Positions 144 through 59,770 of a DNA stretch of 64,000 nucleotides are shown here, piece after piece; positions within the stretch are counted from its first letter, which is position 1, and every line of letters begins with the position of its first letter. This stretch comes from Prosapia bicincta (lineage: Eukaryota > Arthropoda > Insecta > Hemiptera > Cercopidae). The position numbers and the translations under genes are program-made. The stretch is taken from NCBI GenBank assembly GCA_036971475.1, contig JBAIZL010000002.1, positions 21,763,567 to 21,827,566 of the forward strand. Reading direction: 5' to 3'. The notes beneath the pieces were generated by a model. That model was not told where the DNA came from. It saw only the letters and a program-made list of their open reading frames with translations, and searched no databases.

Positions 144-864
144 AAGCCCCTTAGCGAGAAGTTAAGATAGATATATAACATGCAGTTTGGTGAGTTATAA
201 GCAACGCACTATAATTTAGTGCAAAGTTCCCTTTGCCTTTATTTATTTAGATTCCCCACTAATAACAATGACGGTACTTTTACATTAGATTATAATCTGG
301 TTTATGAAAAGAGTCCTGAATATATCACTTCGAAAATTTCTAACAGGCTAGAAATTAAAAACAACTTAAAGATTACAACTGTAGTACATTAGAACCAGTT
401 CTAAGCCACTAACCTGTACCTCAGTGCAAATGCTATCCTTTGGAATATCTGTTATATAAAAAGACAACAGCAACTGTGGCCCAAGGACTCTTGCTTCCTT
501 ACTAACTCCCAGAACTCTGTGCCAAGCTTCCATTATCTGAAATTAAACACTAAATACTGTATATAAATATAAGAGTGAAAAAAACATTTACAGACATTTA
601 TTTTGTCTGATATTAAAGCTAAACATATAAAAAAATTTATTCATATTTATATAGGACTACATTTGACTTAATATATGACTAAATTTTAATAATAAACCAG
701 CAATTTAAAAAAAAATTTCAAATCAATTCCTACTTAGGCCAACAACAAAAGATTTTTTTAAAGACTTTTCATTAAATAATTACAATGACTTATTACACTT
801 TTGCTATTGCTTGCGACTAGACTTTTTGTTAACTAAAGGTTGTTAAATTGTTAACTTATACTTG

Positions 865-900
865 GAGGAAACGTTTTTGTCTTATGATTTCTTCAGCCTC
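865..900 (-). ncRNA. Hammerhead-like ribozyme motif (left arm)
   Basis: On the minus strand, helix I GAGG (897-900) pairs with CCUC (865-868). The core CUGAAGA (890-896) is intact. A short helix II hairpin follows, then a self-complementary AACGUU (870-875) as helix III and U at 869 before the predicted cleavage point. The G12 position reads A, so this arm is probably weak or dead. Confidence 0.5.
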
Positions 901-914
901 GTCGTAAGACATCG

Positions 915-953
915 AGAGCACTTAAGAAGTCGTAAGATGAAAACGTTTCCTCC
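915..953 (+). ncRNA. Hammerhead-like ribozyme motif (right arm, core damaged)
   Basis: This is the inverted partner of the 865-900 motif. GAA followed by AACGUU and U, then CCUC (949-952), are intact, and helix II is GUC/GAU around GUAA. The core reads CUUAAGA, so G5 is changed and activity is unlikely. Confidence 0.4.
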
Positions 954-2429
954 AGGTTTAAGTTAACAGTATAAAAACCTTTAGTTAACAACAAGTCTGG
1001 TCGCAAGTAATATCAAAAATGTAATAAGTAATTAACAACCAGCTCATCATGAACAACAACAAGATTTTGATATTTAATTACAATTAATATAAATATGTAT
1101 ACACATATGACAGAATCACAATAACAGGTAGCAAAATAAGAAGCAAAACTAATTATTCACATTAACCTAGCCTAAAAAGTCTAATTTTTTCTAAAGCATT
1201 ATTTACGATAATGTATGGTAACTATTGCAACAATTTGTATGGAGATTTCGAGGACAACCAGGTGGAGGCAAAAAAAAATTCATACACTTCTCTAAGAAAA
1301 ACATTTCCACCTATCGGGATGTTGGCTAAGTGCCAAACATCTAGCCACACAGTTCGAATTCGAACTAAAGATATCATCTTTTTTAAATTAAAATAATGAA
1401 TTATTATTTGAAAATACTCTATTAACATCAAATATCATCCACTACAAATTTAAAATCTATTTGAACTTGAGTGATTGAAGAAAAAGAATTTGATTAACAA
1501 TTGAAATTTTGAACAAGATATGCACATATAGGGAGAGTGTGAACTTATAGAAGGAATTGAATTAGTAAACCATATTAAAAATTAGGTCAAAGGTGACATT
1601 TAAAATATTTTTAGTAAGATGAATTAAAAGTAACATGAATTTAAAAATAGATGAGTTACATTTAAAAAGTTACATGAATGTTAATTTAATTAAAATTTTA
1701 AAGCAAATATAACATAAGGCAACCACTGCTTGACAGGTAGTAAATAAAAGGAGCAATATAGATAAAATGGTCAATAGATAGTATCAAGTTAGAGACATAC
1801 ATAGATTTATAATAATATTGAAAGAATTATGCCTCTACAAGAAGTAAAGAGTTGTATTCATTACTCACAAGTACATTGAAATCAAGTGGTACGAATATGG
1901 CTAGATAGAATCTTTATTTCCCCCTCCTTGTTATAATCCAAAAGGGTCATTATTTATTCAATGCATAGAATAGTACAAACTTTACATAAAATATCAGACA
2001 CCGTCATACTTGCAGCCACTTTGGTTCACTTGCTTTTTGAATATTCCGCAAATCTAATATTAAAATTGATTTGAAGATCTATAACATCCATATAAAAGAT
2101 AGTCTCTTGGGTGTTGCCTATGGCAACTGAACCAAGCCTGTAATATCTTAATTACTAACTGAAAATGTACTGTCATTAACACACTTCAGACACATACGTA
2201 CAACAATTATACACAAAGAACAATACACAAAAGAATGCAAATTATCAGTGACACACTTAGTACATAATTGAGTACATTTTTCTGCTTTTTACAACATTAG
2301 AAAATAGTCAACAAAGGTAAATATTGTAGTATTAGGAAAGGCAGAAAAATGTACTCAAAAATATACAAATATTCCTAACAGAAATGAAGATGAGTATATT
2401 AAGAACACACACTGTAAAACACCATTTTC

Positions 2430-2604
2430 CAATCAATAATAATCTGTTATTGTAATCCCAAGGTAGGAAAACAAATATTTGATGAAAGAATATTCCTTGC
2501 CTATTCCATGATTTCAAGGTGTTTAAAATTCTTCTGCTCCTCGGCATATCATATCCTTTTTCTAAGTCAAGAAGTATAATAACAATGTCTTTAAAAATTG
2601 ACAA
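2430..2604 (-). pseudogene. Non-LTR retrotransposon reverse transcriptase fragment
   Basis: The minus-strand frame contains VIILLDLEKGYDM, which matches the catalytic A region of Jockey-like reverse transcriptases (usually FLDLEKAYD), followed by RILNTLKSWN and a degenerate continuation. Only about 55 codons are recognisable and the flanks are non-coding. It is a dead fragment downstream of the visible Cep120 exons, probably in a later Cep120 intron. Confidence 0.5.
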
Positions 2605-3816: not shown

Positions 3817-3940
3817 CTGCCCTCCTTGAAATACAATTTGCAGCTCTTTAAGGTTAAGAAAAATATAACCGATACGGTCCTCCCTGCCATTGTCTACAGT
3901 GTAACAATCTATTTTCAGAGACGTGTTATCCACTCTTAAT
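3817..3940 (-). CDS. Cep120: Cep120 exon 3
   Basis: Acceptor TTTTTTTCAG precedes ATTAAGAGTGG, and the donor is GGGCAG|GTAAAA. It encodes R-LRVDNTSLKIDCYTV...DRIGYIFLNLKELQ and ends in phase 0 with CAG. The IGYIFLNL strand is the conserved C2 beta-strand of the CEP120 family. Confidence 0.75.
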
Positions 3941-6900
3941 CTGAAAAAAAACCAAAATTAACCAATAATTAATAAATAATATACAAATAATCTCTAATAA
4001 AGTAATATTTTAATAACCTTGTGTATATTTTGACTGCAAAGCAAACATACTCAGAGGCAACAAAATATGGTTTTTAATATGGATTATGTTTCTGTTACCT
4101 CTGAAGATGGTTCTTTAGGAGGTTAAATATATATGTATAAGGCTAATAACATATTATTATGGTTAGAGTGTGTTTGTGTTTTTTTTACAAATGTACCTTT
4201 CAAAATGATGAAACCAATTTGCTGTTAATTGAAACAAATAAACCTGAAAACTTGATAAAAATGTGACAATAGTCAAAACATTTCTATTTTTCTTACAGGG
4301 TACTAGACCCTGTAAATCATGAAATATTATTGGGAAAATTTTATAATTATACATAAAAGGTAATATGGAAGATCTTAACAGTTAGTTCGATGTAGACTTC
4401 AAACTTATTTAAGATTTTTTTATTAGATAGGGTACTACAGACTTAAAAATAATAATCTTGTTTATTTTCATGAAATAGATACACATAAGCATAATAAAAT
4501 ATTTGAAATATTTAGAATGTATCGCACCTTTGTTAATCAGAAAGAAAATACTGATAATCTATGTCTGGTAAAATTATATCTCAGAATGTGGTTTATCTTT
4601 GTAGAGGCATAATAGAAATAATTTAAGTAATTATTAAGATCAGCGACTACCACTCCAATCCGCTATGTTTTTTCTTGATTAATTTGACCTTGCTGAACAT
4701 GAATCTGAAGTTATTTTTAACGCCAAACACATATTAAACTAAGAAAACCAGGTCAGGTTAGGTTAGGTTATTATTATTTTTTTAAAAATATGTTTGCAGT
4801 AGAAAAAAAATTCAGATTCGTGTTCAGCAAGGTCAAATTGATCAGGGAAAAAAATTCGCAGATCGGAGCGGTAGTCGCTGATCTTAATTACTATAATTGA
4901 ATAACGTGTATATAAACTTTGCTCAACATGTCCCCCGTTGCAGTATACTTTATTGAAGGCCTCGGTAATATATTCGTTTAGTTGTGTTATTGTGCAGAAT
5001 GTGAACTTAACATTTTGGAAATCTTTTGAATTTTAATTTATACTAATAACTGTATATATACTCCATTGATTAAAGTGCCGATTCCAATTCTTGTATTTTT
5101 AACTGATAAAATACATATGTGGTGTAATTTATACGAAATATAATTAGTTATCAACTATGTTTTATTTGAGTATGTATTAGCTACTTTGAATGAATTAAAC
5201 GTTAAAGCAAATGTCTATGAGATCACAAAAATATTATTATTACTTATGACGCAACAACAAAGACAATCGGAAGCATTTCTGGTCCATTTGTCCAGTACCT
5301 CCTCGTAGTAGGTACTAGTTTGTCACCGTTCTTCTCGATCTGCTGTCTCACTCTCACTTGGTAGGGTTCGACACTCACCTCTCTCCCCATCTCTGGCAGC
5401 CACTACTCTGCCACCGCATCATAGATGTCAAAACAAAACACAAAGAAAACATAGTTCCAATTTGTCTGCTTATACAAACTGAATTGGCTAAAACTGAAGT
5501 TATGTATCAATTGTGAACTAAAGTTCATATTTGTAATTTCAAGTAAATCATTACCTTTATCCAATATGTTTATCACCCTTTCAGAAATGTCTATTCATAA
5601 AACAAGGTTGAAAACTTTGTGTAGCCTATTACATTAAGTTTCCAGCCATGGCTGGATTATTAACTCAAGTTATCCCCACCCAGAGGGTTGAACAGTAAAG
5701 ATCCAAATATAACATTAATACAGGCACTCCTGAGCCACTCCAACTCTACCGAACGTTTTTCACTGTAACACCTGCAAAACATCTGTCCCTTCTGGAACAA
5801 AGATCACCTAAATATATGGTAAACTCAGAGAAGTTGAGTAAATGTGCCTTGAAAACCATCCAAACACTCTACCCAAAAGAAAAAAAATGGCTGCATGTTT
5901 ATACGGATGGCTCAAAAATCCCAAACTTTGGAGTTGGTGCTGGTGCTTTTTGCAGTTTGTTTGAAGTGTACAGAGGAGTGGGAGCCATTTGTAGTAATTA
6001 TGATGGTGAGATTGCAGATGTGCTCTTGGCAATCGAAGAGCTGATAAAAGTTGTAGACAAGACAATAATCCGTCAAGTGGCCTTTTTCATTGACCCGCAA
6101 TCTGGCTTAACTGCCCTGGTTAGCAATACACCAACAGTCTGTAGCAGAACCATCGAAGGGAGAAGAACTATCCACAAACTAGTTATGGAGGGATGGATGG
6201 TACACCTACAATGGATGCCAAGCCATGTCGGTATCAGTGGAAACGGCGGACATATTGGCAAATGGGGGAACCCGCGAAGAGTGACCTTTTATCTTTTTAT
6301 TGCCAAGGGCAGGAATTGGCTAAATCAAATCATCAATCACATTAAAACAGAACTTTTAAAAGCCTTCACCTTATATGACCAAGATGTTTACTAAATTCAT
6401 TAATAGAGAATATCATGGTAGGCCTATGCAACTTGAAAGAATCGAGATTCGACTTAAGAACTGAGAATCAAAAGATAAATTTGAGAATCGAAAATTAAGG
6501 GATTGGCCCGTCCCTAATTTAGCATATATTTAATACTGATGTAAACCATCTAACGAAGAATTAATTAAGTGAAAGAACTTTACCTTTTAACCAGCTTCTT
6601 GTTAATTTCATATGTCAATTCATAATCAAAATGTGGATCAGGGGAAGCGAGTTCAACGTCAGTAGCTAAAACATGTCCAAGCAATGATGATGTAACTTTT
6701 ATAGGAGAAGTTAGAAATCCAAATCCATGTCCTGTAGTATACAAGATAAAATAATTTTTATTAAGTAATATTTATTCTATTAATTTTAATAAAGTACTTT
6801 ATAATTTGAAATGCTCAAATTTAATTATAGGCTTCACAAGAGATTAAGTATTAAGGCAAGAAGTTATTTTTGTACTTTTTATACTAACTAGCCATCAGAG

Positions 6901-9900
6901 ACAACCCTCCCCCAGCCTGAGCGTTACATACCTACTAAATTTGACATAAATGTTAAAAAAGCTATTTTCTTTATCCAAACCTATCCTAAATAAATAATTT
7001 GTTGCTAGATTGTAAATGGTTCATAATAATTTAATTCAGTAGAGAATGGATAATCTATTGATACAGTTTCAAATAAGTTTGTCTGTTAAGGTTATGTATA
7101 TATTTTTAAAAATTTAATAACTATTTATGTTTTTTGACACTTAAAATCACTTGTTTGTTGTTTAAGTTGTATTTCTGAGAAGCATATATTAAACAACCAA
7201 GACTTGTGTTAGCATAACAAAAGATAGTGTAATTATAACTTTTATAATTAAATAATACTCAACTAAGTGATTACATAAGGACTTACTTCCTGACGCTTTT
7301 CGAAACAATCCTTTCTTTTACGAAGCAAAGCCTCTACTGACTAAGGTATAAAGGTTGTCGGAATGAGATTTATGAGTGTAGTGGGGGTAGGTTAAGTTGG
7401 TTGTTTATTATGTAATAAAACAGGGTGTTGGCTTAGAAGTATGTCGAACCAGCAAGTAAGCCCTTACATATTCACTTAGTTAAGTATTATTTAATTATAG
7501 TTTAAAATGATTACTATTTACTTTAAAAAAGGCAACTATTATAATTTCATAAGAAATTAATTCAGTAACAAATGAAATCTATTAACTTACTTACTAACAA
7601 TCTTCAAAACAGTTGTTTTATTGAAGAAGCTAATTTACTACTCATTCAATCTTGGTTACAGCATATGATTTCAGCATAGGAAGTTAGCTTCGTCAATGAA
7701 ACGACTGTTTTGAAACATGTCAGCAAGTAATGTCTTGTAATGATTTATTCAATATCATTACAACAAGTAACTTTTATAATTTACATTTGAACTTACTAAA
7801 TAATAATAAATACCAATTGAGTTCATTAAAGCTAGGGTACAATCCCTCAAAAAACCTATATAATCATGTTCGGAACCTTGTATTAACTCAGCTATTTTTA
7901 AAGGGGTAAAAAATGAGTAAAAAAATAATTGGAATAGGTTTAAGGCTAACTGAAATTGGTTTACCTTTTTTGTAAATTAAACTCTTAAACAATGTACAAG
8001 AGTTTATAAAAAAATATCATACCTGTTTGGCTATACAAATAAAAATGTAACATTTGTTGATTCCATCTTCGCGTGAGCTACTAGTAATCACTTACACTTT
8101 TAAAAAAATGTTTTAACTTGCCTATAGTAGCACTTATACTTTGCTTGTTGAGGACGGCCGTTTCGGGAGATGTGTCCCTTTGTCAACTCAGACCGTAACT
8201 GATCTCAAGGTTTACGTAGGTTAGGGTGGGATATTTTGGTGGTGTGGGTGTATTTTGTGTGTATTAGGAGTTATGATGTCAAAAAGTGCGTGTGAGTTGT
8301 AATGTAATTGTGTATTGAGTATGTGTGTAGGGTGTAGTTTGAAGTGCCTATATATTTCGTATTGTTCGGTTGTGTAGCGTTGGTTATTTCTGTGTTGTTT
8401 ATGAAGAATTTGTAGGTTAGATGGTATGTCTATGTAGTCGTGTTTTGTGGAGTTGAGATGATCTGCGAAGTTTGATTGGTAGTTATTGTTTTTTAGTGCT
8501 TTTACATGTTCTTGGTAACGTGTGTAGAATGACCTCCCTGTCTGGCCTATGTAAAAACTAGGGCATGAACTGCAAGTTAGTTTGTAAACTCCAGTGGTGT
8601 TGTAAATGTCGTTGATTTTGCTGTTGGGTTTAAATTGTTTGTTGAGAGTGTTGTGTGTGGAGTAAGCTATTTTGTAGTTGTATTTTCGTAATGTGTTGGT
8701 TAGATTGTGGGTTTTGGATGATCTGTATGGTATTGCTAAGTATTTTATGGGATTGTCATCTTGTGTGTTTGTATTTGGGTTATTATGTTTATTTTTTAGG
8801 CGGTTGTATAATTTGTCAATCATTGTTGGGTTGTATCCGTTTGTTTGTGCTATATATTTTATGGTGTTTAACTCCTGGTAGTGTTCATCTTTGTCTAGTG
8901 GTGTTTTAAGGAGGCGATATATAATGGTGTTGTAAGCAGCTAGTTTATGTTGTTGTGGGTGGTTTGAGGAACTGTGTATGGTCGTATTGGTGCTGGTGGG
9001 TTTTCGGTATATGTTGAATTTATGTGTTTGTTTGTCTGTCCGTTTAATTGTGAGGTCTAAGAAGTTAAGGGAGTTTTGTTGTTCTGTTTCGATGGTGTAT
9101 GTTAGTTTAGGGTGTATGGAATTTAGGTGTTTTAGAAATATGTGTGCTCTGCGTGTGTTGCCTTTATATAATGTTATGATGTCGTCGACGTATCTGTACC
9201 AGTAAATTATGTTATCTGAGTATTTGTTGTTGTGTAAAATGTGGTTTTGTTCGATATGGTGTATGAATATTTCTGCTAAGATGCTAGCTATGGGGGACCC
9301 CATAGGTAGTCCATCTTTCTGGTTGTAGTATGTGTTATTGTAGGTGAAGTAATTTTGAGATGTGATTAATCTTGTGAGGTGGATGATTTCGTCAATGTGT
9401 GTATGTGGTGTATTTGTGTCTATTAGCATGTTTTTGAGGATGTCGATGGTTTCTGGAATGGGGATGTTTGTATATAGATTTGATATATCAAAAGAGACTA
9501 AGGTTGAATTGTGTGGAATATTTACGTTTTTAATTTTGTCTATTAGATTTAGGCTATTTTTTATACTACAATGATTATTAAATTTTATATGGTTTCGGAT
9601 AGTTTTGTCGAGGAATTTGGCTAGAAGATGAGAAGGGGCGCTTGTGTGGTTAATTAGTGGACGTATTGGGATGTCTGTTTTGTGAAGTTTGGGCAGGGCG
9701 TTTAGTTTAGGGGCTATTGGCTTTATTTGTTTTAGGTGCTTTTTGGTGTGGTGCAAAACAAAACTTATAATCCCACACCATAGACATACACCATATTGAA
9801 CGAAACCACATTTTACACAACTATAAATACTCAGATAACATAATATACTGGTACAGATACGTAGATGATATCATTACATTATATAAAGGTAACACATGCC

Positions 9901-11627: not shown

Positions 11628-12245
11628 TTTTATAAATATGGTTGTAATTAGAAATACAAAGATTGATGTTATAATGACACAAAAACTAATTCCCCTTCCT
11701 ACATTTTATTAAAAGTTATTCAAGTTTGCACTTCATCACCATGACAACCGTCACATATTGCTATGTATTTAACCCCAAATTAGGATTTTTACTACGCCAT
11801 CTACCAGAGAACTCTCTGAACTATTATCACATTAAAAAAAAATATATAAAAGAAAGTATAAACCCTATGTTTTCATAATCTAAATTGTATATTTATATTG
11901 GGATTGAAACTTATTTTGATCCTATATTGAGGCTATATTTAATAATCACTTTTACTATTAAGAAATAAACAATGTATAAAGCATAAAAAGTGTTAAACAA
12001 TTGCTATTAAAGTATTTAAAATTTTTTTCCTAAATGTAAAGCTGTGATTGTTATGAGATTCTAATATACTGCTAACCTCTATATAAATATGGTTAGTACA
12101 ACCATATTCCACATTTCTTATTTTTAAATTTGAATAATGTGTTTCAGATGCCATTCATCAGTCAAGCCTATCTACATTCTTTCCTTTATAATGCTAGGAG
12201 AAACAGGAGATATTGTTATTTACTAAACACTTTTAAATGTTTTAA
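11628..12245. other. Upstream region of Cep120, no gene seen
   Basis: It should contain the Cep120 promoter and 5' UTR (minus strand). I see no TATA box or CpG-rich block I would defend, only AT-rich sequence. Confidence 0.3.
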
Positions 12246-12350
12246 ACTTGCCTATAGTAGCACTTACTTTGTTTGTTGAAGACGGCCGTTTCGGGAGATG
12301 TGTCCCATTATCAACTCAGACCGTAACTGATCTCAAGGTTTACGTAGGTT
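12246..12350 (-). repeat. Solo Penelope-like 3' terminus
   Basis: It matches the outer ends of the 8120-10925 element (CTTGCCTATAGTAGCACTTA through GGTTTACGTAGG) but has no coding part beside it. It includes a hammerhead-like motif with the same U3/A8 core. Confidence 0.75.
12264..12326 (-). ncRNA. Hammerhead-like ribozyme with U3/A8 core (solo terminus)
   Basis: Minus strand: TTAC (12326-12323) pairs with GTAA (12267-12264). GAG pairs with UUC. The core is UUGAUAA plus one extra U, helix II is GGGA/UCCC, then GAA, helix III ACGGCCGU and GUC. Position 7 differs from the copies at 8.1 and 10.9 kb, while U3 and A8 are the same in all three. Confidence 0.55.
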
Positions 12351-12367
12351 GTGGAAATATATATTAA

Positions 12368-13359: not shown

Positions 13360-13360
13360 T

Positions 13361-13445
13361 TAACTTGCCTACAGTATTATTTACTGCTAAATAGGATAGG
13401 TATTTTGGGAGATGTTCCTAATTATTAACTTGGATTGCAGTTTAT
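13361..13445 (-). repeat. Degenerate Penelope-like terminus
   Basis: It matches the solo terminus at 12246-12350 (AACTTGCCTA, GGGAGATG, AACT..GATTGCAGTT) with many substitutions. The hammerhead region reads UUAAUAA then UAGGA/UCCC then AAAA, so it is inactive, but U3 and A8 are again present. It abuts the right TTAA of the piggyBac element. Confidence 0.5.
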
Positions 13446-20374: not shown

Positions 20375-20399
20375 CTGCAACAAAACAAAAAAATGAAAA

Positions 20400-43000: not shown

Positions 43001-46000
43001 GACAGAAATAGAAAGAGATAAATAAACAAATTTTTTATGTAGAACCAATGTTTTAAAAAGAATCGTGAATTTATGAAACACAAATACCATATGTATATAA
43101 TTTTAATTAAACAACTTAGAATCTTGTGTTTCAGTTAATGGTGTTTGATGTGGTCACACAGAGGTTCGACCAAATCCCTTCTCTTAGTAGTAAAAACACA
43201 AATATTGCTGAGATTCCTCCAGAACAACAGTGTGGGATCCATTCATTGCAGATTAATCCCTCAAGAACTCTGCTGGCTACTGGAGCTAAAAACTCAAATG
43301 ATATTGCAGTATATAGATTACCAACATTAGATCCAGTTTGTGTTGGAGAGGTAGGTAGAGTGATTTTCCTTTCAAGCATATACAGTCCAGTGGCCCCAAA
43401 ACAGTATGGGACAAATATATATTTAATCACAACATCCATACATAAGTCCAATTGCTAACCTGTTCTTTAAAACTTATTACATTAGAACTTCTGTAATTCA
43501 TCACAGTAGTAACAAACATCTTCTGCACTCTCACGTAGTGTAGGTGAAAAAGAATTCTTCAGGCATCAGAAAAGAATCCTTTAGTACAAAAGAAAATGAC
43601 AGTCTCTTTTAATAACTAAAACGTAAATAGATTTAATATACCGTAATTTTTCTGGTTAGTGTTTTTGTTCTTACAAGGCTACTAGTGTTTTTATAGTGTT
43701 GAGCTTTTCGGCCAACATAAATAACGTAAGTACAACAATAATTACATTACATACCTATTTACAAATTTTTGCTATCTTTACCAATAATTATATGTTAATT
43801 TCACGACCTCCATAATTCATCCTTTTCTCCCTCGGCTCCAAATGTGACAAATTAGAGAAGTTTTCTACTTTATTTTATTTACCTTGAAAATTATTTATAC
43901 TCAAATTTTTATAATTAAAAACTTGGCTTAAACAATTTATTTATGGGAATTTCTCAGACAACGAATACAGTGATCACTCTTTATAAGGATATTCACAAGG
44001 CTGGACTATTTTATTTCTTCTTTATATGTAGATCTTAGTAAAACCTTTCTCCCAAAAAATGTTGAATGAAGTTAAAATAAAAGTACAAAACATTTAAATG
44101 AATAAATTGCATTTCATTGCTGGAATATACAATGATAATATAACTGTAACGAAAATATAATAAGTACTTTCAGTATACTATATAAAACTTAATTAATCAC
44201 TTTAACATTAGTTTATGACTATCCGAACTTTAAATTTTGTAAAAACTTACTGAGACAGAACGTTTTTGATCACTATATGGTGATCTTCAGTGTCTTCTGC
44301 TTGGAGTTGTTAGGTTAAGCTGTGACGGTTTTAAAGGCAGGTTTTTGACAGTATCAAAGATTATGTGTGATTTGTATTGGGTTTGTTTGTTTAATATGTT
44401 CGTATTTTGTGTGTTTGTAAATTGTTCTAGTGTGGAGATGTGGTCCTTTTTTGTTGAAGTGTAAGATTTCTAGGTTATGGTAAATGTCTGTATTTCTGTC
44501 CTGTTTCTTTTATGTAATTATAAAATGCTGAGTTGGTGTTCTGTTTGTGTTTCTTGACTCTTTGTTTGAAGCTGCGACCTGTTTGGCCAATGTAGAATTT
44601 GTTGCAGTTTAATTTGTATATGCCTGAGCTTGTAGTTTATCTTTAAAACCGCTTAACCTAACAACTCCAAGCAGAAGACACTGATGAATATCGCCACATA
44701 GCGATCAAAAACGTTCTGTCTCAGTAAGTTTTTACAAAATTTAATTTTCAGATAGCCATTAATAATAAAGTGAATAATTAAGTTTCATTGAATGTTATGA
44801 ATTACAAAATTCAAGAGTATATAAAACTGTCCTCTCTACTAACTTTCTTTTTTTTCCACCGATCTCATTCTCTCCTGAAGTAGCACAACAGCTTTAGCCT
44901 CTTTGGTCACTGAAGGACTGAAGTTGTGGGATCAGAACAGTTGTTGAAGAAGAGTAAGATTTTCTACTCTTAGAATTCACCTTTCGATTTCTGATTTCTT
45001 GAAAACTTCTGTAGTCATCCGTACAATCTTTATAATTGACAAATAGATCCTTGATGCTTTTGAATCAGTACAGGTTTTGGTCTTTACAGTTAACATTAGT
45101 CTCATCGTCTCTGAGCTGATCACTAATCGTGGCCTGTAACACTGTTATTCTATTTATCCTGTTCATATTTCAGTTCTGAATTTTAAAGTTCTGTCTGGTA
45201 TCACTTTATAAAAGAACCCAATTTCATTAGCATTGACAATGTCTTCCTCCAATTATTGCACCTTTCACACAGGCTGTATATTTTTCAGCACCTCAGCCAC
45301 AAGCCATATGTTTTTCAGCCATAGCCATTTCTTGTTATAATGTTCCTCTCCATTAAAACGACAATAGTAGATGTACTTTTTGGATGTGTTATGTCTGCTA
45401 CACCAAACTAAGATGTAAAACATTCCGCTTTGGTTCTAATCAGAGTGTCAGTTTATCTGTTAAATTTGTCTTATACACCTATTCTCATTACTAAAACTTA
45501 CTACAATAGCAAAAATAATAAATATAAAACCCCTTTTTGTGTTACAATATAAAATTGCTGTTGATATTTATATTGATTTGCCATTGGAATGTTTTATTAT
45601 TGAGAATGGCCTTGAGGTTAACAGTCTTAAGTAAATGACTCAACAGACAAAAATCTTTAGTTAAATTAAATAAATAGTTATATTTTGTCTAGTGCTATTT
45701 ATCAGAATCCTGATTATATATTACTACATACAAGATGTCAGATTAACTTTATTATTAATATAGGACTTGTTATAAATAATTCTATAATTATGGTATAATT
45801 ATATAAATAGGCTGTACACAAATATCATCTGTCTTTCCTAACAAAGTACACTTGAGTCCAGCTAATCCGAACTAATTGGTACTGAACGCTGTTCGGATTA
45901 GATGAAATAATGTAAATAATGGAGAACGAAGCAACTTAATGAATCTGTAGTGTTGTAATATGTAAAAATAATACACTAATAGAAGTGTAATAATGGGCTT

Positions 46001-52000: not shown

Positions 52001-55000
52001 TGTACTAGCTCGTAATAGGAAAATAAACTACAACTAGGAATTGGACCTCTATCAGCGTTCATCAATAAATTTCCCTTAATTGTAGCAATGAATTTACTTT
52101 CATAACTATTAAGCAACTTTTTGGAGAACACCATTTTTCCCATCTTAACCATTTGGCTCCCAAATCAACTTGTATTTTATTTTAATTTCTGTTGATTGTC
52201 AGCTGTTTTTATTGTATTAATTTCCGTGCTATTAAATACAGACCTATCTGTATTTGCAATCTTGTTGAAGTTCTCATCGGTTAATAATAGACAATTTGAC
52301 TCAAAAATTATTTCTAAAATGTTCAAAAATAATAGTTGAAGATTATCATAGTTATTTTAGAATTTATTACTTTTTTTAGAAAATTTCGAGGAAACTTCCT
52401 TCATGCCAAGATAACGTTTGTATAGCTGTACGTGACAATGGCTCTATCTATTCTGTCGGCTGCAGATCCTATACACTACTGTTAGATTCTAGGACATTGC
52501 AGGCTGTCAAGAAAATATCCTCACGCTATAGTGGATGTGGTAATTATTCGTATGGTTGCTTGTTGTAATCATCTTGAATTCATTGAATTAATCCCAAGTA
52601 ATTATTGCGTGAATGAAGACTTTAAACTTACTTCCTGATGCGCTTCGAAACAATTGTTCCATTGACAAAGTCAACCCACTTCGAAGCGTGTCAGCAAGTA
52701 AGTTGAAAGTTTTTACTCAGTTACTCAATAATTACTTTTAAATTATTCATAGAGTATCTATGTTACTGAGTTAGTTCTAAGTTATTTTCTCCTAATGAGT
52801 CTTAATTTTAATTTGTTTTCTTTCTATTTAATACTCAATGTTTTATTTGAGTAGGTTTTAGCTTTCAGTAGGTGCTCTGTATTTTATCATGATGTCAAGA
52901 TGTTTTGCAGAATACAGTGCTAATTCTGCATAAAAACTAGGTCCAAGGTAGTCACTAAACCAGGAAAAATCATGGAATTATTTCATTAAACAGTTTTTAG
53001 CAGGGGTGCAGAATATGTCCGATCCGGTGATCTAGGACTGGGGGAAATCTGAGGGATATTCTTGGGTTTCTGGGAAAAATATAGTTTACGCATTTTTTAA
53101 AAATAATTTCTTTCCTTAATAAGAAGAATTTAAAAAGTTTCTGAATAAAAGAAAATTAAAAAGGTACTAAAACTCGTTAAACAAACGGACCAATAGGTTA
53201 GGATTTATATTAGTTGTCTTTTATTATTTTCTTTCAGCTACAGTAGTGTATTTTGTTCTTGATTCGGCAGCACGGAGCAGCTTATATTCACACGGATGAA
53301 AGATTGTGATCTGACGCTGCAAAAACTAATGTGTTCCTCACATTAGGCGGTGTATTACGGATATTTCGTATCGTAATAAAAGAAGAGATTTAGTGCATAT
53401 TAATCACATTAGTTCTTATTTGTTTGTTTAGTAGCCTCCCTGACTTAAAGAGGCTGAAGAAATCGTAAGACCAAAACGTTTCCTCCAAGTGTAAGTTAAC
53501 AATTTAACAACCTTTAGTTAACAAAAAGTCTGGTTATAGTAATATCAAAGTGTAATAAGTAATTAATAACAAGCATGAACTACAAATTCAAAAATTTTAA
53601 AAGACATTTTAATTGATCATCTGAAATCTAGTGCTCATAAATGATGTGACTTTTCGGGATCATTAAAAATTAAAGAAAAGAAACCAACGAAGAACATGAG
53701 CAATTTTTGGGAAAGCTTTGGCTAGGTAGGACAGGTTATATTAAAGAAGGTAAAGGGGAAAGTTTTTTGAAAGGCTGTTGAGTTTAAGTGATTTAAATAA
53801 TGATATTGGTGAACTTAACCATTCCTGGGAATTTTATAGAGAATTTAGAAGAAAAATATTTTTTACATGAAGTCAAAAATTATAGATTTTTCAAGTAACG
53901 GCAATCCTTCAACAAATCAACTACCTTTAGTGTCTATTGCAGTAGATATAATAACAAGACAACACAGGACTTTCCAAATTACTTGTCTGATTACTTCAGT
54001 TAGTGTACAGACATGTATAATCATTGACATATCTCCCTGTGGCACTTCTTACAACACCGATGCCCTTTCGAAAATCAAATCCGTCCTTGACAATTAGAAT
54101 TACAACTAAATGAAATGTTTTTTGATGGGCAATATTTTTACAATTTAGTTGCAAAATTTTCACTTCATTGGTAATAATATAGAAATTTCGTAATCTGGTT
54201 GGCCTTTATCTACATGTTCCATAACTTTCAGGGAAATTTGAAATATGCCTAAACGGGATTGGGGGAAATATTGAGGGTAAAACATATTCTGCACCCCTGG
54301 GTTTTTAGTAATGCAAAATTCAAAAAGAATGAAAATGCCAAAATGTTTGTAAGCAGATTCTCTTTTAAAGTAGCTATTTAAATTGTATTTGTTGTCCCAT
54401 AATGGGTGAAAGTGTAAACAGTACAGTAAAGGAGTAAGAGAAAGATTTTGTTGGGCAAAATCTTAGCGTTCATTAAGGTTGAATATGTTTAACAAGAATA
54501 GTGAAGACAGCTGGAGTATAAAGATGGTTTTAAACTGTAGCTACACTTATAAAGTATATTGAGCAAGAAATCTACTTGAATTTTTATAAGATTCTTTGGT
54601 AATGTACTTTTATATCACCAGGTATGTGTGTGTGTGTGTGTGTGAATTTGTGCTAGTTGTGGCAAAGCTTATTTGAGATGTTTTGGATTAGGTATGAGAC
54701 TGACAGATTTACATTGGTAATAACCCAGTTTGTTTTCGTTACATAAACACACATAAACAAACTGAAATAAAGATGCATGTTGTAATCATATTGAATTTAC
54801 TGATTAAATTGTAATTATTGCGCAACTGAGTGAAAAATTTGAACTTACTTGCTGACCAGTTTGGAAGCAATCGTTTCATTGACGAACCCGACAAGCTACT
54901 GCTAATGATCGTTTAAGGTTGCAGGAATGATTTATGAAAAAAAATTTGAAATTTCCAAACATCACACAACATAAAAGCAATATATCTTAAAGGACCACAC

Positions 55001-56598
55001 ACACTTTAAACCTAATCCCCTATTCCAACCGCTTATCCCGAACCTTCCTCCACACTCGTACATCATATGGTTATAACCTTGAGCGATCGTCAGCAGTAGT
55101 GGTCGGCTTAGTCAAATAAACTATTGTTTTCAAATGCATTAGCATGTAAGTTCAAAAGTTTTCACTCAGTTATGCAATATTTACTTATTAACTAGAATAT
55201 TTGTTTTATTCAGATGCACTTAATTCTTTATCAATCAGAAAGAAAGAACTGATGATTATCACATGTGGATAGTACACAATATCAAGAGTACAGTGGTACA
55301 ATATATTACAATGAAAATATTGGAAAGAACCCCAATACCACAAAAATAACATATAAAACAAGTTACTTAAGATTAAACCTTTATGTACATTTCGACGACC
55401 ATGTCATCATCATCATCATCAGAGGGTCTTATTACAAAATATAATCTAGCAAACAAGAAGTTACAAACTAGAGTGATGAAATCTATCCATATATTACAAT
55501 GAAAATATTGGAAAGAATCCCAATACCACAAAAATAACATATAAAACAAGTTACTTAAGATTAAACCCTTATGTACATTTCGACGACCATGTCATCATCA
55601 TCAGAGGGTCTTATTACAAAATTACAATCTAGCAAACAAGAAGTTACAAACTAGAGTGACGAAACCATCACTGTAGTTTGTAACTTTTTGTTTGCTAGAT
55701 TGTTATTTTGTAATAAGACCCTCTGATGATGATGACATGGTTGTCGAAATGTACATAAAGGTTTAATCTTAAGTCACCTGTTTTATTTGTTATTTTTGAT
55801 TATTTTTGCGGTATTGGGGTTCTTTCCAATATTTTCACTGTAATATATGGATAATTTTATCAAATGTTAAAGGTTGTGGTTCAGCCTTGATTAGACGTAT
55901 AGACGTTACAGATGTATTTTTTAACTTAAAAATGCAGTATACTCTTGATCGTCAGATACTCTTGATTTTATGTATGATTAGTGTAGCACTCCTATCTTCT
56001 CATTTCTGACAAATTAGAATCTATAAGACATGACTAGTAACAACACATTGACCTTTATGGTATTTTACAAAAAAAAGATTTAACAGATAATTTTTAGCAA
56101 ATAAATTGTCAGTAAACACAAAGTAAAGTTTGGTTAACATGAGAAAATAAGTAAATAAAAAAAAATATTAACAAATATTACTATAATTTAAAAAATTGGA
56201 GAAAAATTTAGAAAAAATTAGAAAAAATATAGTGTTAAAATCTTTCAAAAATATGTTGCTCCCAGGGGCCATATCGGGGCAGGCACATGTTGCTAATTAA
56301 AGGGTTAGTAAAAAGATTTGCACAGAATTTTTGTTAAATTTTTACAATTTATTAATATCTACATATTTTTCAAAAGTTGTGTTCATGTAAAACTATATAT
56401 AGTTGAAAACTATATATTGAAAACTAATGTGTAATTTTTTATGCAGGAATCAGATCTGTTAGCTTTCAGGGAAATGTTCTAACAATAGGCACAGGTGTGG
56501 GTATGATCATGTTTTATGACTTGAGAGCAGGCAAATACCTGGAATCCAGTATTAACTCCAGTCGCACAGTTGTCCTAAAATCTTCAAGAGGTTATGTG
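39653..56598 (+). CDS. DCAF12: DCAF12, WD40 receptor of CUL4-DDB1 ubiquitin ligase (3' end beyond window)
   Basis: Exons 39653-40063, 43135-43350, 51230-51520, 52380-52539 and 56447-56598 join in frame (410 codons), all GT-AG. Matching family landmarks: [20 protein letters not shown] and GTKCHK, then [59 protein letters not shown] (WD40 strands), [41 protein letters not shown] and [20 protein letters not shown]. The N-terminus is basic and acidic, as in orthologues. Vertebrate DCAF12 is about 450 residues, so one last exon (about 50 codons) is missing to the right. It recruits substrates, including C-terminal degrons, to CUL4. Introns 1, 2 and 4 are full of transposons. Confidence 0.9.
40959..41345. 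repeat. Rearranged inverted-repeat MITE (relative of 4637-4884)
   Basis: Starts ATCAGCGACTACC and ends GGTAGTCGCTGAT. It has one left half and two right halves (about 41105-41200 and 41210-41345), each with CAGCAAGGTCAAATT. The second right half carries CAGGTTAGGTTAGGTTA at 41214-41230. It lies in DCAF12 intron 1. Confidence 0.6.
41463..42720 (-). pseudogene. Helitron (Pif1-like) helicase relic
   Basis: Read on the minus strand in order: IEDLCFVI and [40 protein letters not shown] (Walker A GGTGKT), [40 protein letters not shown] (Walker B region), then the late segment YKSIDTV...[18 protein letters not shown]. Stops and frameshifts separate the pieces. The order matches the helicase half of Helitron Rep-Hel proteins; the Rep nuclease is absent. 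It lies in DCAF12 intron 1. Confidence 0.8.
43135..43350 (+). CDS. DCAF12: DCAF12 exon 2
   Basis: Acceptor TTGTGTTTCAG, donor GGAGAG|GTAGGT, 72 codons. It encodes [17 protein letters not shown] ... [20 protein letters not shown] ... [13 protein letters not shown], among the best conserved parts of the family. Confidence 0.92.
43351..44230. other. DCAF12 intron 2, first part; nothing recognised
   Basis: AT-rich sequence without an element I can name. Confidence 0.3.
44253..44295 (-). ncRNA. Hammerhead-like motif (left end)
   Basis: Minus strand: AGACA (44295-44291) pairs with UGUCU (44257-44253). The core CUGAAGA is at 44290-44284. Helix II is UCAC/GUGA with loop CAUAUA. Then CAAAAACGUUC, with AACGUU as a palindromic helix III. 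G12 reads A, so it is probably inactive. Confidence 0.45.
44330..44640 (-). pseudogene. GIY-YIG endonuclease fragment of a Penelope-like element
   Basis: The minus-strand frame begins [20 protein letters not shown], then [20 protein letters not shown]: the GIY-YIG catalytic strands and following Arg/His. Stops and frameshifts interrupt the C-terminal remainder. It is a different family from the 8-11 kb element. Confidence 0.75.
44676..44721 (+). ncRNA. Hammerhead-like motif (right end, consensus CUGAUGA core)
   Basis: Helix I AGACA (44676-44680) pairs with UGUCU (44717-44721). The core CUGAUGA (44681-44687) is perfect. Helix II is AUCGC/GCGAU around CACAUA. Then CAAAAACGUUC with palindromic AACGUU. 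The changed G12 and two unpaired bases before helix II argue against full activity. Confidence 0.5.
44850..45480 (-). pseudogene. pogo/Tigger-like transposase relic
   Basis: Minus-strand pieces read [20 protein letters not shown] then [10 protein letters not shown] and ENLTLLQQ, which line up with the (C)FKxIKSLPVxYxxNKxAWM ... FxEWL ... KVLLFxDNC stretch of Tigger-type DDE transposases. Many stops and shifts. Low sequence quality but correct order. Confidence 0.4.
45999..47616. repeat. 760-bp repeat C (copy 1), split by a pogo MITE
   Basis: It matches 54714-56051 from TTGGTAATAA to CACATTGA. An inner palindrome (AAGTTTTCACTCAGTT arms with CAGCAAGTAAG-type ends) is centred on the MITE insertion. 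The two copies were hit by different elements: a pogo MITE here, a Penelope cluster in copy 2. Confidence 0.75.
46271..47128. mobile_element. pogo/Tigger-like MITE, 858 bp (intact copy)
   Basis: CAGTAAACTCCCGATTATCC at left and its inverse at right, flanked by TA duplicates. Same family as the element split by BEL at 28267-36582, opposite orientation. The equivalent position in the repeat at 54714 is uninterrupted, giving the empty site. Confidence 0.85.
48970..50010 (-). pseudogene. mariner transposase pseudogene
   Basis: Read on the minus strand: MSRRWVFEW then KRFKEGR (helix-turn-helix end), [81 protein letters not shown], a stop, then [20 protein letters not shown] and KEALKGIRF. This is the full mariner order. 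More than eight stops or shifts. The second catalytic Asp (HQDDAPAH) and YSPDLAP are visible; the first is lost. A TIR-like CTATAAAATAAGGACAC lies near 48975; I could not find its partner. It lies in DCAF12 intron 2. Confidence 0.85.
50280..51229. other. DCAF12 intron 2, last part, with dispersed repeat A copy
   Basis: 50660-50850 matches repeat A (AAGTCAATTCCTACTTAGG, TAACATAGCCTATG, ATAACATCAGCTGTT). Otherwise nothing recognised. Confidence 0.4.
51230..51520 (+). CDS. DCAF12: DCAF12 exon 3
   Basis: Acceptor TTTTTTCCAG, donor CAACAG|GTAAGA, 97 codons, phase 0 at both ends. It encodes [20 protein letters not shown] and [13 protein letters not shown], an acidic insert, then [20 protein letters not shown] and [13 protein letters not shown]: two WD40 blades. 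Confidence 0.92.
52380..52539 (+). CDS. DCAF12: DCAF12 exon 4
   Basis: Acceptor TTTTTTTAG, donor GATGTG|GTAATT, ending one base into Gly. It encodes [20 protein letters not shown] and [20 protein letters not shown], matching the KLPxCxxNVC region of DCAF12. Confidence 0.9.
52610..52745. repeat. Palindromic element (AGCAAGTAAG family), in DCAF12 intron 4
   Basis: AACTTACTTCCTGATGCGCTTCGAAACAA-type arm at left, mirrored by TTCGAAGCGTGTCAGCAAG at right. The right arm keeps CGAAGCGTGTC, the equivalent of GAA, helix III and GUC in hammerhead-like ends, without a clear core. Confidence 0.45.
53001..54299. mobile_element. hAT-like element, 1.3 kb
   Basis: Inverted ends CAGGGGTGCAGAATATGT, and GTTTTTAG on both sides (52993-53000 and 54301-54308), an 8-bp duplication typical of hAT, with one extra G at the right. 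No hAT transposase block found; the 76-codon frame at 53867 is not recognised. It contains the solo Penelope-like end at 53450. Confidence 0.65.
53450..53485 (+). ncRNA. Hammerhead-like motif in a solo Penelope-like end
   Basis: GAGG (53450-53453) pairs with CCUC (53482-53485). The core CUGAAGA (53454-53460) is intact, with a short helix II around GUAA, AACGUU (53475-53480) and U before cleavage. G12 reads C. The downstream tail (to about 53580) matches the 788-1034 element. Confidence 0.45.
54621..54645. repeat. (GT)n microsatellite
   Basis: About ten GT units in intron 4 of DCAF12. Confidence 0.8.
55374..55428 (-). ncRNA. Hammerhead-like motif with expanded TGA triplets
   Basis: Minus strand: CUGAUGA then extra UGA triplets before helix II GAC..GUC, GAA, palindromic AUGUACAU (helix III) and A. 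Here the triplet run has two more units than at 55562, pushing helix II away from the core. Confidence 0.45.
55562..55611 (-). ncRNA. Hammerhead-like motif (near canonical)
   Basis: Core CUGAUGA (minus 55604-55598), one extra U, helix II GAUGAC/GUCGUC around AUG, GAA and AUGUACAU. The flanking GACCCU and AGGGUUU-type strands can form helix I. Confidence 0.55.
55716..55764 (+). ncRNA. Hammerhead-like motif (near canonical, plus copy)
   Basis: Helix I AGACCCU with AAGGUUU (one mismatch and one wobble). Core CUGAUGA (55723-55729), one extra U, helix II GAUGAC/GUUGUC with a G-U pair, GAA (55746-55748), helix III AUGUACAU, and A before predicted cleavage. Confidence 0.55.
56447..56598 (+). CDS. 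DCAF12: DCAF12 exon 5
   Basis: Acceptor TTTTTTATGCAG, donor TATGTG|GTAAGA. It completes the split Gly and encodes [20 protein letters not shown] and [14 protein letters not shown]. Ends phase 0 at Val. The C-terminal exon was not found up to 64000. Confidence 0.9.
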
Positions 56599-57227
56599 GT
56601 AAGACATTTTTTTTCATTGTTAATTTTTAAAATTAATTTCGTAGCAGTTGAAAGCAAGTTTAGATATAATTTGATTAAGAAGTGCCCTGACCCATCAAAA
56701 CAATTAAATACCTGGTAATCATCAACAAAAGGGATGCAGTTAATGTTAATAGATTTACAAATTTCCTAAGGCAAATAACCATGTAATTTAGTTTTTTTTT
56801 TATTAATACTTTCTTGTTACTCACCTCACTTGTCTATTAGCTGCTTTATTGACTACACTTTCTTAAATGTATGTACAGTTGTACCTCCGTATCTACGGGT
56901 AATGGGACCCAAAATTACCACGGTAATATGAAACCGTGAATAATAAAGATGAATATTAACACACAAATATACATTCAGACATTAACAGTATACTGTAGTA
57001 CATTTACATAGATATGCGAATTACATAAGTACATTATATACTTTTTAATCTTAAAAATATTACAGACAAGTACGTAAGTATTGTTATGTAAAGTAGGGCT
57101 ATTGTGATTATACTGTTTGTACTTACCATCACATGGTGTACAGTACTAACAACTGTACATATTTACAGTATTTCCTTTATATTAATTAAAACAACCTCTC
57201 ACCACAAATTCAACAAATTTTATTTTA

Positions 57228-57270
57228 ACCTTATGTACATTTCGACTACAAAGTAATCATCTTCAGAGGT
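57228..57270 (-). ncRNA. Hammerhead ribozyme candidate (best preserved)
   Basis: Minus strand: helix I ACCU (57270-57267) pairs with AGGU (57231-57228) directly at the core. CUGAAGA (57266-57260), one extra U, helix II GAUUAC/GUAGUC around UUU, GAA, helix III AUGUACAU (57240-57233, perfect palindrome), A at 57232 as the cleavage base. C3, G5, G8, A9, G12, A13 and A14 are all present. It is a minimal type I layout with a very short helix III. Confidence 0.7.
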
Positions 57271-57513
57271 ATTTTTACAAATAACTAACTTCAGAAAAAG
57301 AATTGGGATGAATTTTACAATAAAGTTATCATAGTTAATGAGCATAAATATATGAAGGAAACGGAAAAATTAGAAAGAAAATTAAATGGGTTGGGTAAAA
57401 ATAATTTTGATACAAATATGAAACCTAACCTAAAAAACGATGTAGAGTTAGTTAGGAATGAAACTAACATAAAATTTAAACCGATGGAATTAGAGTTAGT
57501 TATTTGTAAAAAT

Positions 57514-57556
57514 ACCTCTAAAGATGATTACTTTGTAGTCGAAATGTACATAAGGT
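57514..57556 (+). ncRNA. Hammerhead-like motif (right arm, G5 lost)
   Basis: Identical to the left arm except that the core reads CUAAAGA. ACCU (57514-57517) pairs with AGGU (57553-57556). Loss of G5 should inactivate it. Confidence 0.55.
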
Positions 57557-58734
57557 TAAAATAAAATTTGTTGAATTTGTGGTGAGAGGTTGTTTTAATT
57601 AATATAAACATTTACGCTACATTTGCTTTAAGTTGTTGTAGTATTTCCTTTGTACATACTAACAACAAACGTTTGTTAACAAATGTGATGACAATTATTT
57701 GACTTTGAAACTTATTTAATAGAGCTGTACAGAGAGTATGTATGAATAGTGCACTTCACAATTTATACATTAAAACTACAAAAAGAAGTTTCAAGTTGAA
57801 GTTAGGAACAAGAAACTTTTAGTCAGAAATATATTCATCATAAGTGGAAAAGACTCGGTGTTTGAAAAAGAGGAGTCTATTACATTTAGTGATGCTGACG
57901 ATTTTATTAGTACAGATGAATCAATAATTGGCATTTTTGTTTCTACTTGGAAAAACATTGTGATAGGAGGCTGTTATTTTTTCTTTACATTTCACTGAAG
58001 AAGCTGTGCGGTATCTGTAATCATTCGGGTAACTTTAATTTCGTATTCCGTAAGTGGGTTGTAATACATTATTTTTTCTTTAAAACTTCTGCAGTGAATA
58101 AGCTTCTGTAACCGCTAGAACAAGACAGAAGAGATTTCAGAGGAAAACAATAAGTCTATGGAAATCAATGATTCAACAATCAACAAACGAAATGCTATAG
58201 GTTACTGAATGTAAACAAAAAGGTACTGGATACAAGGGGAAAAACTGACTTAGACATGAGTGTTTACGAGCGGTTGAACATTAATTGTTCTTTGATTCTA
58301 AGAGTGACAGCATACCACGGGTAATTGGAACCGCTGATACCAATACAATGGATATGGAGTCACAACTGTATTGCTTTTATGAAGAATATCTCCCATAACT
58401 ATAATTATCCAAGTGTGGCTTCATGAAACATATTATAGGGTAGAAAAATACAAGACACTAAATATTGATAATGCTGTTTGATTATCTGCATTGCACATAT
58501 TTTGAAGAATAAAGCCATACTTTCTCGACTCCATCAACATATGTAAATGAAAGATTGATGAAATCTTGGTATCTCAGACAAAGAAATGACTAAATATTTA
58601 TTCATACTAATTAAATTACTTTTACAAAATATTATCTTCTTCAAAGATGTACGAAAACTTTCCACAGGAAATACAGAAAAACCTTTCATATCTAGATCAA
58701 TGTGGAAACAGCCAGATCTGGATAGCGAAAACTA

Positions 58735-59312
58735 TTGATATGGGAGGGGTTATGTAATGGTGTATGTTTGTACTACATAATTACAACCATTCCAAATGGT
58801 AGTATATGTATGTATGTTTAAAGTAAATAAGTTACACTTATTGAAGATTATAATTATATTTAAATAACAATATAGAACTATACATACAATTTGGTTATAT
58901 TGTCTTTGTGTACTGTTCTTTAACCCATTGCGGTTTAACGCTAGATCAGCTAGTCACGACAATTTATTAGTAGCGGGTAATAATAGTTGGTAACATGAAT
59001 GCCGTCATTGTTTGAATCATTTGTTTGCTTCAAGAGACTTTATTTTCTGATTTGTCTCACACAAGATTAGACTTCTGTCCTAAGGGATATTTATCGACTC
59101 TCTAAACTTACAGCATAAATAAAGATATTTATGGCCCATTGACCTTCTGTCAACATCTAAACATAATAGAACACTTCAGCAGTTTTCAAGTCAACTGGAG
59201 TGAGAAGTTCAGTGTACATTTTACTCGGTGTCGGTCAGTAGACACTCAAACAACTATTTTGGGTAATACCAATCTGTAGAACACTAGTGAACTGAACGAT
59301 AGGGAGACTAGA
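58735..59312. repeat. Dispersed repeat B (copy 2, inverted)
   Basis: Inverted match to 19495-20075, including GATATGGGAGGGGTTATG, TAAGTTACACTTATTGAAG and TATTTATGGCCCATTGA. No coding. Confidence 0.6.
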
Positions 59313-59344
59313 ACACAACTAGCTTAATCAGGAAATCCCATGGC

Positions 59345-59770
59345 GGTCCAGTTGTTTGTTTATAGTATTTATTGTTTAATTGGAAGTAGTTTTGGTTACA
59401 TATTTGTTAGATTAGTGTAATAATACTATTTATTGTATTTTCTTTCTTGTTATTGTGTATTAGTTTGTTTTGTATTATTTCTATGGTTTTTTCTATTGGA
59501 ATGTTAGGGTACATATTGATTATATCATAACTAATTATTTTTGTGTTACTGTTTGTTTCTGTGTTTTTCATTTTATTAATTAATCGTATCAGTTTTTTAT
59601 ATTGTATGTGTTATTCTCTCCATGTGTTGTTAGGACTCCCCATAGCATACCCATATCATCAGTCATGTCACAAATATATCTACAACACTTCGAACAAATA
59701 GTAATTAAACTTATAATAATACACACACATAACATTTTACTATGGACAAGATTTGTAGATCATATACTTG
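59345..59770. pseudogene. Penelope-like reverse transcriptase relic, head-to-head
   Basis: Minus strand (59630 to 59370): KIISYDIINMYPNIPIEKTI, a stop, then NQNYFQLNNKYY, matching the SFDI..LYTNIPI and QNYFTYNNTYY blocks of the 8-10 kb protein. Plus strand (59632-59770): ISSVMSQIYLQHFE and LLWTRFVDHILV, the GSPISSxLAxI..HxE and RYVDD blocks, with the second Asp lost. The two halves point apart. The LTR element at 59771 cuts the plus part. Confidence 0.65.

Follow-up and report, generated by a model that had tools for sequence, protein, structure and literature searches.

We analysed a stretch of 64,000 nucleotides of the 2.2 Gb genome of the hemipteran Prosapia bicincta (contig JBAIZL010000002.1, positions 21,763,567 to 21,827,566; hereafter the window), which carries several families of Penelope-like elements (PLEs). 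At seven places minus-sense element sequence on the left faces plus-sense sequence on the right, and this head-to-head layout, listed in an initial annotation made from the letters alone, held at 7/7 of them. At six of these places the outer ends survive and carry a hammerhead-like motif, in many cases a decayed one, and the pair at 59 kb is without ends. The pairs at 0.8, 4.0, 8-11, 44, 55 and 57 kb were assigned to families of pseudo-long terminal repeats (pLTRs) named A, C, D, E and G, together with B, an older relative of E. Solo pLTR copies lie at 12.2, 17.0 and 53.5 kb, with a faint one at 13.4 kb.

Penelope-like elements and their pairs

PLE coding sequence was recognised by protein comparison at 8224-9771 (-), 9755-10822 (+), 44257-44636 (-), 57283-57567 (+, E 8e-4), 59326-59631 (-) and 59638-59808 (+). 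The frame at 8221-9870 (-) matches RVT_1 at E 7.5e-14 and has 602 homologues, the best being 54% identical across 89% of the frame; none of the returned homologue records was named Penelope. GIY-YIG (PF01541) was precomputed for 12 of the 120 homologues listed, and P0097 matches this family at E 0.0021, below the curated cut-off. The Pfam GIY-YIG model itself gave no match to the window frame at E≤1; an 18-residue stretch of the frame falls on columns that are invariant in ten homologues. No PDB chain was similar by sequence at E≤0.01, and a search of viral contigs for PLE relatives returned 14 distant reverse transcriptase (RT) loci with 23-38% identity. PLE anatomy was found in the form of pLTRs, 5' truncation, an inverted pLTR, a variable tail and target duplication, and judging from domain order and insertion anatomy the elements are probably endonuclease (EN)-containing PLEs. 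The initial annotation had likewise read them as PLEs with hammerhead-like ribozymes, a reading that is supported. At L030:4327-6221 a family E-like pLTR leads straight into PLE coding sequence of like orientation, and on its left lies further PLE coding sequence in minus sense; this is perhaps a larger pair.

Pair G is enclosed by a single 34-bp direct repeat, the target-site duplication, with copies at 8049..8082 and 10944..10977 (both given on the plus strand). Its 5'-truncated left arm (8099..9768, -) holds a PLE pLTR whose hammerhead-like motif, with a U3/A8 core, lies at 8146-8192, together with an open frame that encodes RT (YVDD) and ends in a GIY-YIG-like part at the C terminus, and its right arm (9755..10945, +) is a 5'-truncated PLE with pLTR and a hammerhead-like motif at 10854-10900. 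Self-comparison of the window aligned 8219-8886 with 10154-10821 (99% identity) and 9010-9270 with 9780-10040 (90%). Pair E (57167..57651) consists of a minus arm at 57176-57290 and a plus arm at 57494-57608 (99% identical), the latter with a 31-nt tail to 57639, and an N-terminal PLE coding fragment lies between the arms. Its hammerheads are at 57228-57270 (-) and 57511-57561 (+, one core letter changed), and a single 12-bp duplication (57167-57178/57640-57651) surrounds both arms. Related inverted DNA-transposon ends, read by eye at 56877-58370, seem to enclose this pair.

Group D (55266..55853) contains three copies, minus at 55304-55480 and 55492-55663 and plus at 55666-55845, with hammerheads at 55373-55429 and 55561-55611 (-) and at 55716-55766 (+); the inverted arms 55529-55659 and 55668-55798 are 94% identical. 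The group sits in a host repeat spanning 54983-56054, of which an uninterrupted relative at 47129-47619 represents the empty site, and its duplication is approximately TGGATA. About 15 target letters recur at the border of its two tandem units, which may reflect priming by homology or renewed use of the same target. A reading of group D as a metazoan (non-LTR) retrozyme, a kind of non-coding tandem repeat with units of 150-300 bp and type I hammerheads that is distinct from PLEs, was disfavoured although two units of about 188 bp stand in tandem, because its ribozyme region matches family E, whose copies carry upstream PLE coding sequence.

Pair C (44179..44828) has a minus arm at 44182-44636 with an endonuclease-end coding fragment and a plus arm at 44641-44788 with a tail (44182-44336 and 44641-44788 are 84% identical in a gapped alignment), hammerhead-like motifs read by eye at about 44253-44297 (-) and at 44675-44722 (+), and a candidate 11-bp duplication at 44179/44818. 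In pair A (777..1084) the minus arm at 784-904 and the plus arm at 914-1059, which has the longer tail, each contain a decayed hammerhead; 784-896 and 921-1033 are 86% identical, and the candidate target duplication is TAATTACAAT (777-786/1075-1084). Pair B (4010..4150) is old, diverged and related to the 57 kb family. It is a weak pair with no BLAST self-match, its arms being 71% alike across the first 100 alignment columns, and a profile of the 57 kb ends recovers both arms (E 4.9e-6 and 0.023); hammerhead-like stretches lie at 4011-4061 (-) and 4094-4148 (+), and no target duplication was found. Pair F (59341..59808) is visible only as PLE RT fragments, minus at 59341-59631 and plus at 59638-59808; its outer ends are lost and no ribozyme was seen. 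The solo pLTRs belong to family G (12227..12350, -, hammerhead-like 12274-12320), family D (16944..17101, +, hammerhead-like 16991-17041) and family A (53448..53585, +).

A hammerhead-like motif near the outer ends

On the sense strand of families D and E, stem I leads into CUGANGA with one additional U behind it; next come helix II (6 bp) and GAA, followed by the self-complementary AUGUACAU, an A and the second side of stem I. Family C, read by eye, is built alike, its additional letter being an A and its helix III AACGUU. As read, the families therefore carry one extra nucleotide between A9 and helix II, off the canonical core; an extra core nucleotide has reportedly been described in print for a viroid hammerhead. 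The initial annotation had placed CUGANGA, helix II and GAA at each surviving outer end, and this stood for the motif as such at six places but less so for its letters. Core letters are altered in the right arm at 57 kb and in the arms at 0.8 and 44 kb, and family G (8-12 kb) reads UUGAYAA instead of CUGANGA in 11 of its 13 copies in the 264 kb neighbourhood (the window with 100 kb on each side), the other two being without that part. The family G core corresponds to the U3-A8 form of the C3-G8 pair. The family C copies of the window read CAA, and the flank copy L030:392-502 reads GAA. The idea that CAA for GAA in families A and C marks a dead design was set aside, because this flank copy keeps GAA and the changes resemble CpG decay.

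A first hammerhead descriptor, with no extra nucleotide and at least 4 bp in helix II, had 0 matches in the window. A revised one, allowing one extra core letter and a self-complementary helix III, gave two sites in the window (57228-57270 and 55563-55611) and one site in all across 200 dinucleotide shuffles of it; this descriptor was shaped after the copies had been read and after the stricter one had failed. The Rfam hammerhead families had no match in the window at E≤1, nor in two short stretches at E≤10, perhaps since these models are made for a helix III of greater length and for a core lacking the additional letter. Such Rfam matches as appeared were microRNA-like and others, all below the curated cut-offs and apparently drawn by inverted repeats, and a dense inverted-repeat cluster at 37567-37960 also draws weak Rfam microRNA matches.

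Covariation was assessed on 15 copies from the 264 kb, omitting 55373-55429 (which has a 6-nt expansion), two copies on L024 and 4094-4148. Pairing cells amounted to 82.5% against 73.3% in shuffled alignments, and the covariation score to 0.358 against 0.195 (reached by 0/500 shuffles in both cases; slid versions scored 0.05-0.10). Covariation is strongest in helix II, which is 94% paired and in which three of six pairs are changed on both sides. In all, three of five measures beat every shuffle, while two lie near the shuffles (pairs changed on both sides, 6 vs 5.7; further pair types, 18 vs 17.8), and relatedness alone can beat shuffles of this kind. With this caveat, covariation supports the predicted ribozyme fold, and the ribozyme may be able to cleave.

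A covariance model built from the 15 copies scores its own training copies at E 1e-8 or better and outside the training set matches 55373-55429 (E 1e-10), the two L024 copies (E 0.008) and 4094-4148 of pair B, at just E 0.1; matches number 29 up to E 2, and those above E 0.1 may be chance. On L025 two facing matches lie 55 nt apart, minus on the left and plus on the right (E 0.005 and 0.35). The outcome named in the initial annotation as refuting, covariance models scoring no better than on shuffled sequence, is countered by the covariation control; the Rfam models find no motif, and our own model was trained on these very copies. When two strands were folded together, four copies of families D and E were predicted to pair through a shared 8-bp helix III, and the same modelling of A and C copies gave no shared 8-bp helix III. 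In family E the intact ribozyme is the same 44 nt letter for letter in 36/40 plus arms and 9/15 minus arms.

Frequency of head-to-head pairs

Same-family neighbours within 3 kb of each other were counted in the 264 kb on the basis of 41 pLTR ends, 39 plus two weak window ends added by hand (4096-4150, E 0.023; 13357-13433, E 0.0025). Thirteen were head-to-head, two tail-to-tail and four in the same direction (13 vs 2, one-sided binomial 0.0037). For family E the whole genome was searched with the 57 kb end including its tail, which gave 1603 candidates, 40 of them scored at 97-100% identity; 39 copies besides the window's own were fetched with 400-600 nt on the head side. A head-to-head partner was seen in 22 of the 39, among them L055, whose partner is known by coding sequence alone, and L058, which is probably a duplicate of L056 with the same structure. 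Two copies (L049 and L064) are clear singles carrying end repeats of 11-12 bp, four look single without proof (L054, L075, L077 and L080) and in 11 the element runs past the fetched end. Head-to-head pairs are common, both across the 264 kb and among the sampled copies of family E. The remark in the initial annotation that several families with the same layout within 64 kb would be unusual was therefore not borne out; nor were the resolved family E copies mostly single (22 partnered vs 2 clear singles), an outcome it had held against the pairs.

End repeats, end sites and centres

In family E the comparison covered the 15 pairs whose two outer ends were both visible, counting the window pair but neither L058 (treated as a duplicate) nor L074 (which sits within an older pair). 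The longest exact repeats at their ends measure 7, 10, 11, 12 (three pairs), 13 (eight pairs) and 15 bp. A repeat of at least 10 bp is thus found in 14/15 pairs, against 1/210 when ends from different loci are cross-paired. The outer ends are likewise fixed: in 15/15 pairs the plus arm ends at reference position 744-746 and the minus arm at 712-718, so that each pair combines one short outer end with one that extends beyond it by about 31 nt. Here the plus arms are long by selection, as the query held the tail; the minus arms were free to be long and 0/15 were. The same pattern recurs in families A, C, D and G and in a second D pair, all of which were found without tail-based choice: the repeat lies no more than 8 nt from the end of one arm, and the second arm has a further 16-41 nt, on either side.

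The inner truncation points of the two arms differ in many pairs. Centres are clearly asymmetric (minus/plus start) in L062 (416/562), L071 (356/576) and L051 (474/157), and nearly symmetric in L060 (601/601), L078 (601/593) and L068 (257/257). Inner starts at 597-605 occur in 8/15 plus arms and 7/15 minus arms. This position falls about 26 nt past the beginning of a TATAAAT and looks like the RNA's own 5' end. In pair G the arms agree fully over about 480 columns in their 3' half and are about 10% different nearer the centre. These differences fall mainly on third codon positions (11, 5 and 21 of 135 sites each for positions one to three), with 21 codons differing synonymously and 12 non-synonymously, which fits two diverged templates in combination with a template switch or gene conversion. 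The idea that the arms of one pair have private variants in common was dropped as uninformative, divergence between arms being equal within pairs (1.44%) and between pairs (1.40%).

Origin of the pairs and role of the ribozyme

We consider it probable that the window carries several EN-bearing PLE families whose pairs arise when both target strands prime reverse transcription in one event. The element protein would cut the two strands with a stagger of about 10-15 bp (34 bp for the pair at 8-11 kb) and leave 3' overhangs, and each free 3' end would prime reverse transcription of its own element RNA. Each strand would use one of two start sites, which are separated by about 31 nt and lie close to the border of pLTR and open reading frame (ORF); each complementary DNA (cDNA) would head to the RNA 5' end or stop early, and the two cDNA ends would be joined in the middle. 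The expected product consists of two arms joined head to head, their 3' ends facing outward, with a short tail on one arm, a long tail on the other and a single duplication around both. If the repeats are target duplications, the outward 3' ends within them mean 3'-overhang cuts with both strands priming. As a component of the pLTR that precedes both start sites, a hammerhead would come to lie close to either outer end. A lizard PLE protein is reported to cleave and extend both strands and to start at two adjacent RNA sites (PMC11167929). That a pair arises in one event, as the initial annotation had assumed, is supported by the repeats enclosing both arms and by the empty site at 47129-47619.

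Several observations weigh against this explanation or narrow its reach. In the lizard study the strands showed no difference in start site in vitro (PMC11167929). The tail-bearing query selects long plus arms, so the fixed ends of family E speak to long-long pairs and not to short-short ones, and the 39 copies are 39 of 40 scored out of 1603, the most query-like and probably the youngest, with 11/39 running past their fetched ends. Across the 264 kb, 13 pairs were tested and six of them had no clear end repeat (B, E117, G72, G118 and both pairs near -49 kb), some of which are decayed while the arms of G118 are well kept; a 13-bp repeat at the ends of the family G pair at 72 kb was set aside as it lies inside the element's own end. 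The repeats of A, C and the second D pair measure just 10-11 bp, a length that random flanks reach in 0.8-2.3%, and E86, a second E pair with a 9-bp repeat and tails of 6 and 19 nt, is a poor fit to the short/long pattern. Two templates by themselves do not account for the identity of the 3' half in pair G, the centre of L068 is mirror-symmetric as fold-back would yield, and the equal arm divergence does not discriminate. As L049 and L064 are clear singles, either insertion can do without priming from both sides or one side may disappear.

A pair could also form in one event if a single cDNA or antisense template folded back and primed its own second half, as has been proposed for bdelloid Penelope elements (PMC3846280). 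Fold-back would equally leave one end repeat around both arms, and the near mirror-symmetric centres of L060, L078 and L068 are what it predicts; however, symmetry at 597-605 is also explained if both cDNAs reached the RNA 5' end, and the fixed but different outer end sites (712-718 and 744-746), the asymmetric centres of L062, L071 and L051 and the arms of pair G, which look copied from two diverged templates, all speak against it, so that we regard self-priming as rather unlikely. We give very little credence to independent side-by-side insertions, or to a single copy that was later duplicated and inverted. PLEs are dense here and neighbours are to be expected, as with the solo copy at 12.2 kb, only 1.3 kb from pair G, but such an origin is at odds with the excess of head-to-head over tail-to-tail neighbours, with the one end repeat around both arms in 14/15 pairs and with the relative of the 55 kb group that is empty of any copy.

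It might further be supposed that the ribozymes are a working processing step, that their cleavage sets the end of the reverse-transcribed RNA and that pairs are by-products. The compensatory changes in the fold and the identical 44-nt ribozyme in 36/40 plus and 9/15 minus arms would be in keeping with this, and cleavage by a PLE ribozyme, in need of added element protein, has been reported (PMC11167929). The predicted cut, however, lies at family E reference 659/660, upstream of both start sites, so that an RNA cut there would lack them. Of 30 arms 28 cross the cut and the other two begin at reference 666 and 692; 666 is the nearest start, no arm begins within 5 nt of the cut, and 15/30 starts fall at 597-605. 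Most copied RNAs were thus uncut at the predicted site, because 28/30 arms cross it, and the inserted DNA can apparently be made with no cleavage at this site. Ribozyme mutants of the lizard PLE insert normally in vitro (PMC11167929), and conservation of the ribozyme could stem from the recency of the family or from overlap with coding or promoter sequence. We therefore think this explanation improbable; ribozyme processing of the inserted template, which the initial annotation had assumed, is not supported, and for the well-kept motif there remains a role elsewhere in the cycle or the mere youth of family E. Returning to priming from both target strands, a broader form may be proposed, to which we lend slightly less than even credence: that insertion is normally two-ended, a protein dimer making a staggered 3'-overhang cut and the two strands priming at two fixed RNA sites, each at its own, that elements are typically born as short/long head-to-head pairs, and that the pLTR hammerhead, unused on inserted RNA, must serve another step, for example releasing or inactivating other RNAs.

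Comparison with known systems

Head-to-head inverted pLTRs, one-sided tails, short duplications and pLTR hammerheads are already published. The Penelope elements of Adineta vaga (PMC3846280) have pLTRs with an adjacent inverted pLTR, head-to-head being the most frequent inverted layout, a 31-bp tail on one inverted pLTR, a TATA box with initiator and foreign sequence captured between pLTRs, all as described here. Their target duplications are 8-10 bp, whereas those of family E are mostly 12-13 bp. The Adineta study favours self-priming, while the one-short/one-long pattern was counted over 15 pairs here, and the word hammerhead is absent from its main text. The Poseidon PLE of Anolis carolinensis, PAc (PMC11167929), resembles the present elements in its hammerhead at the pLTR/ORF border upstream of the start of reverse transcription, in two adjacent start sites matching the genomic tail and in AT-rich targets, and the cutting and extension of both target strands agree with what we propose. 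PAc differs in forming tandem repeats with no strand difference reported in vitro, whereas the arms of the pairs described here end at different sites.

Minimal PLE hammerheads are of type I, lie in pLTRs, have a short or absent helix III and are thought to be capable of dimerising (PMC6155905, PMC7761336); helix III in the present families is a self-complementary run of 8 or 6 letters. A change from C3-G8 to U3-A8 is found in several natural hammerheads, as is a palindromic helix III allowing dimers (PMC3088659), and in family G the U3-A8 form runs through a PLE family (11/13 copies). Neither the one-short/one-long pattern nor two-sided priming as a source of pairs was met in the literature searched, a weak negative as the main PLE ribozyme papers lie outside it. 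The role of the ribozyme has been called unknown (PMC7761336), and experiments to separate insertion models have been called for (PMC3846280). Near-identical insertions with readable end repeats make both PLE insertion and the ribozyme's role approachable by counting, namely of the start site of each arm, of arm starts relative to the ribozyme cut and of how the centre is joined.

Other features of the window

A BEL/Pao retrotransposon is represented at 29322-34907 by long open frames with DUF1759, Pao peptidase, RT and integrase domains; its named relatives, among the matches listed, are from insects, several of them hemipteran. A fragment at 23471-24289 matches the DDE_Tnp_1_7 transposase family. 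An exon-like WD-repeat stretch was read by eye at 56446-56600, and we take it to resemble DCAF12. Two direct repeats of about 980 bp at 59771-60751 and 63007-63986 are 97% alike and lie 2.3 kb apart, with no frame longer than 93 aa; they perhaps represent a non-autonomous LTR element.

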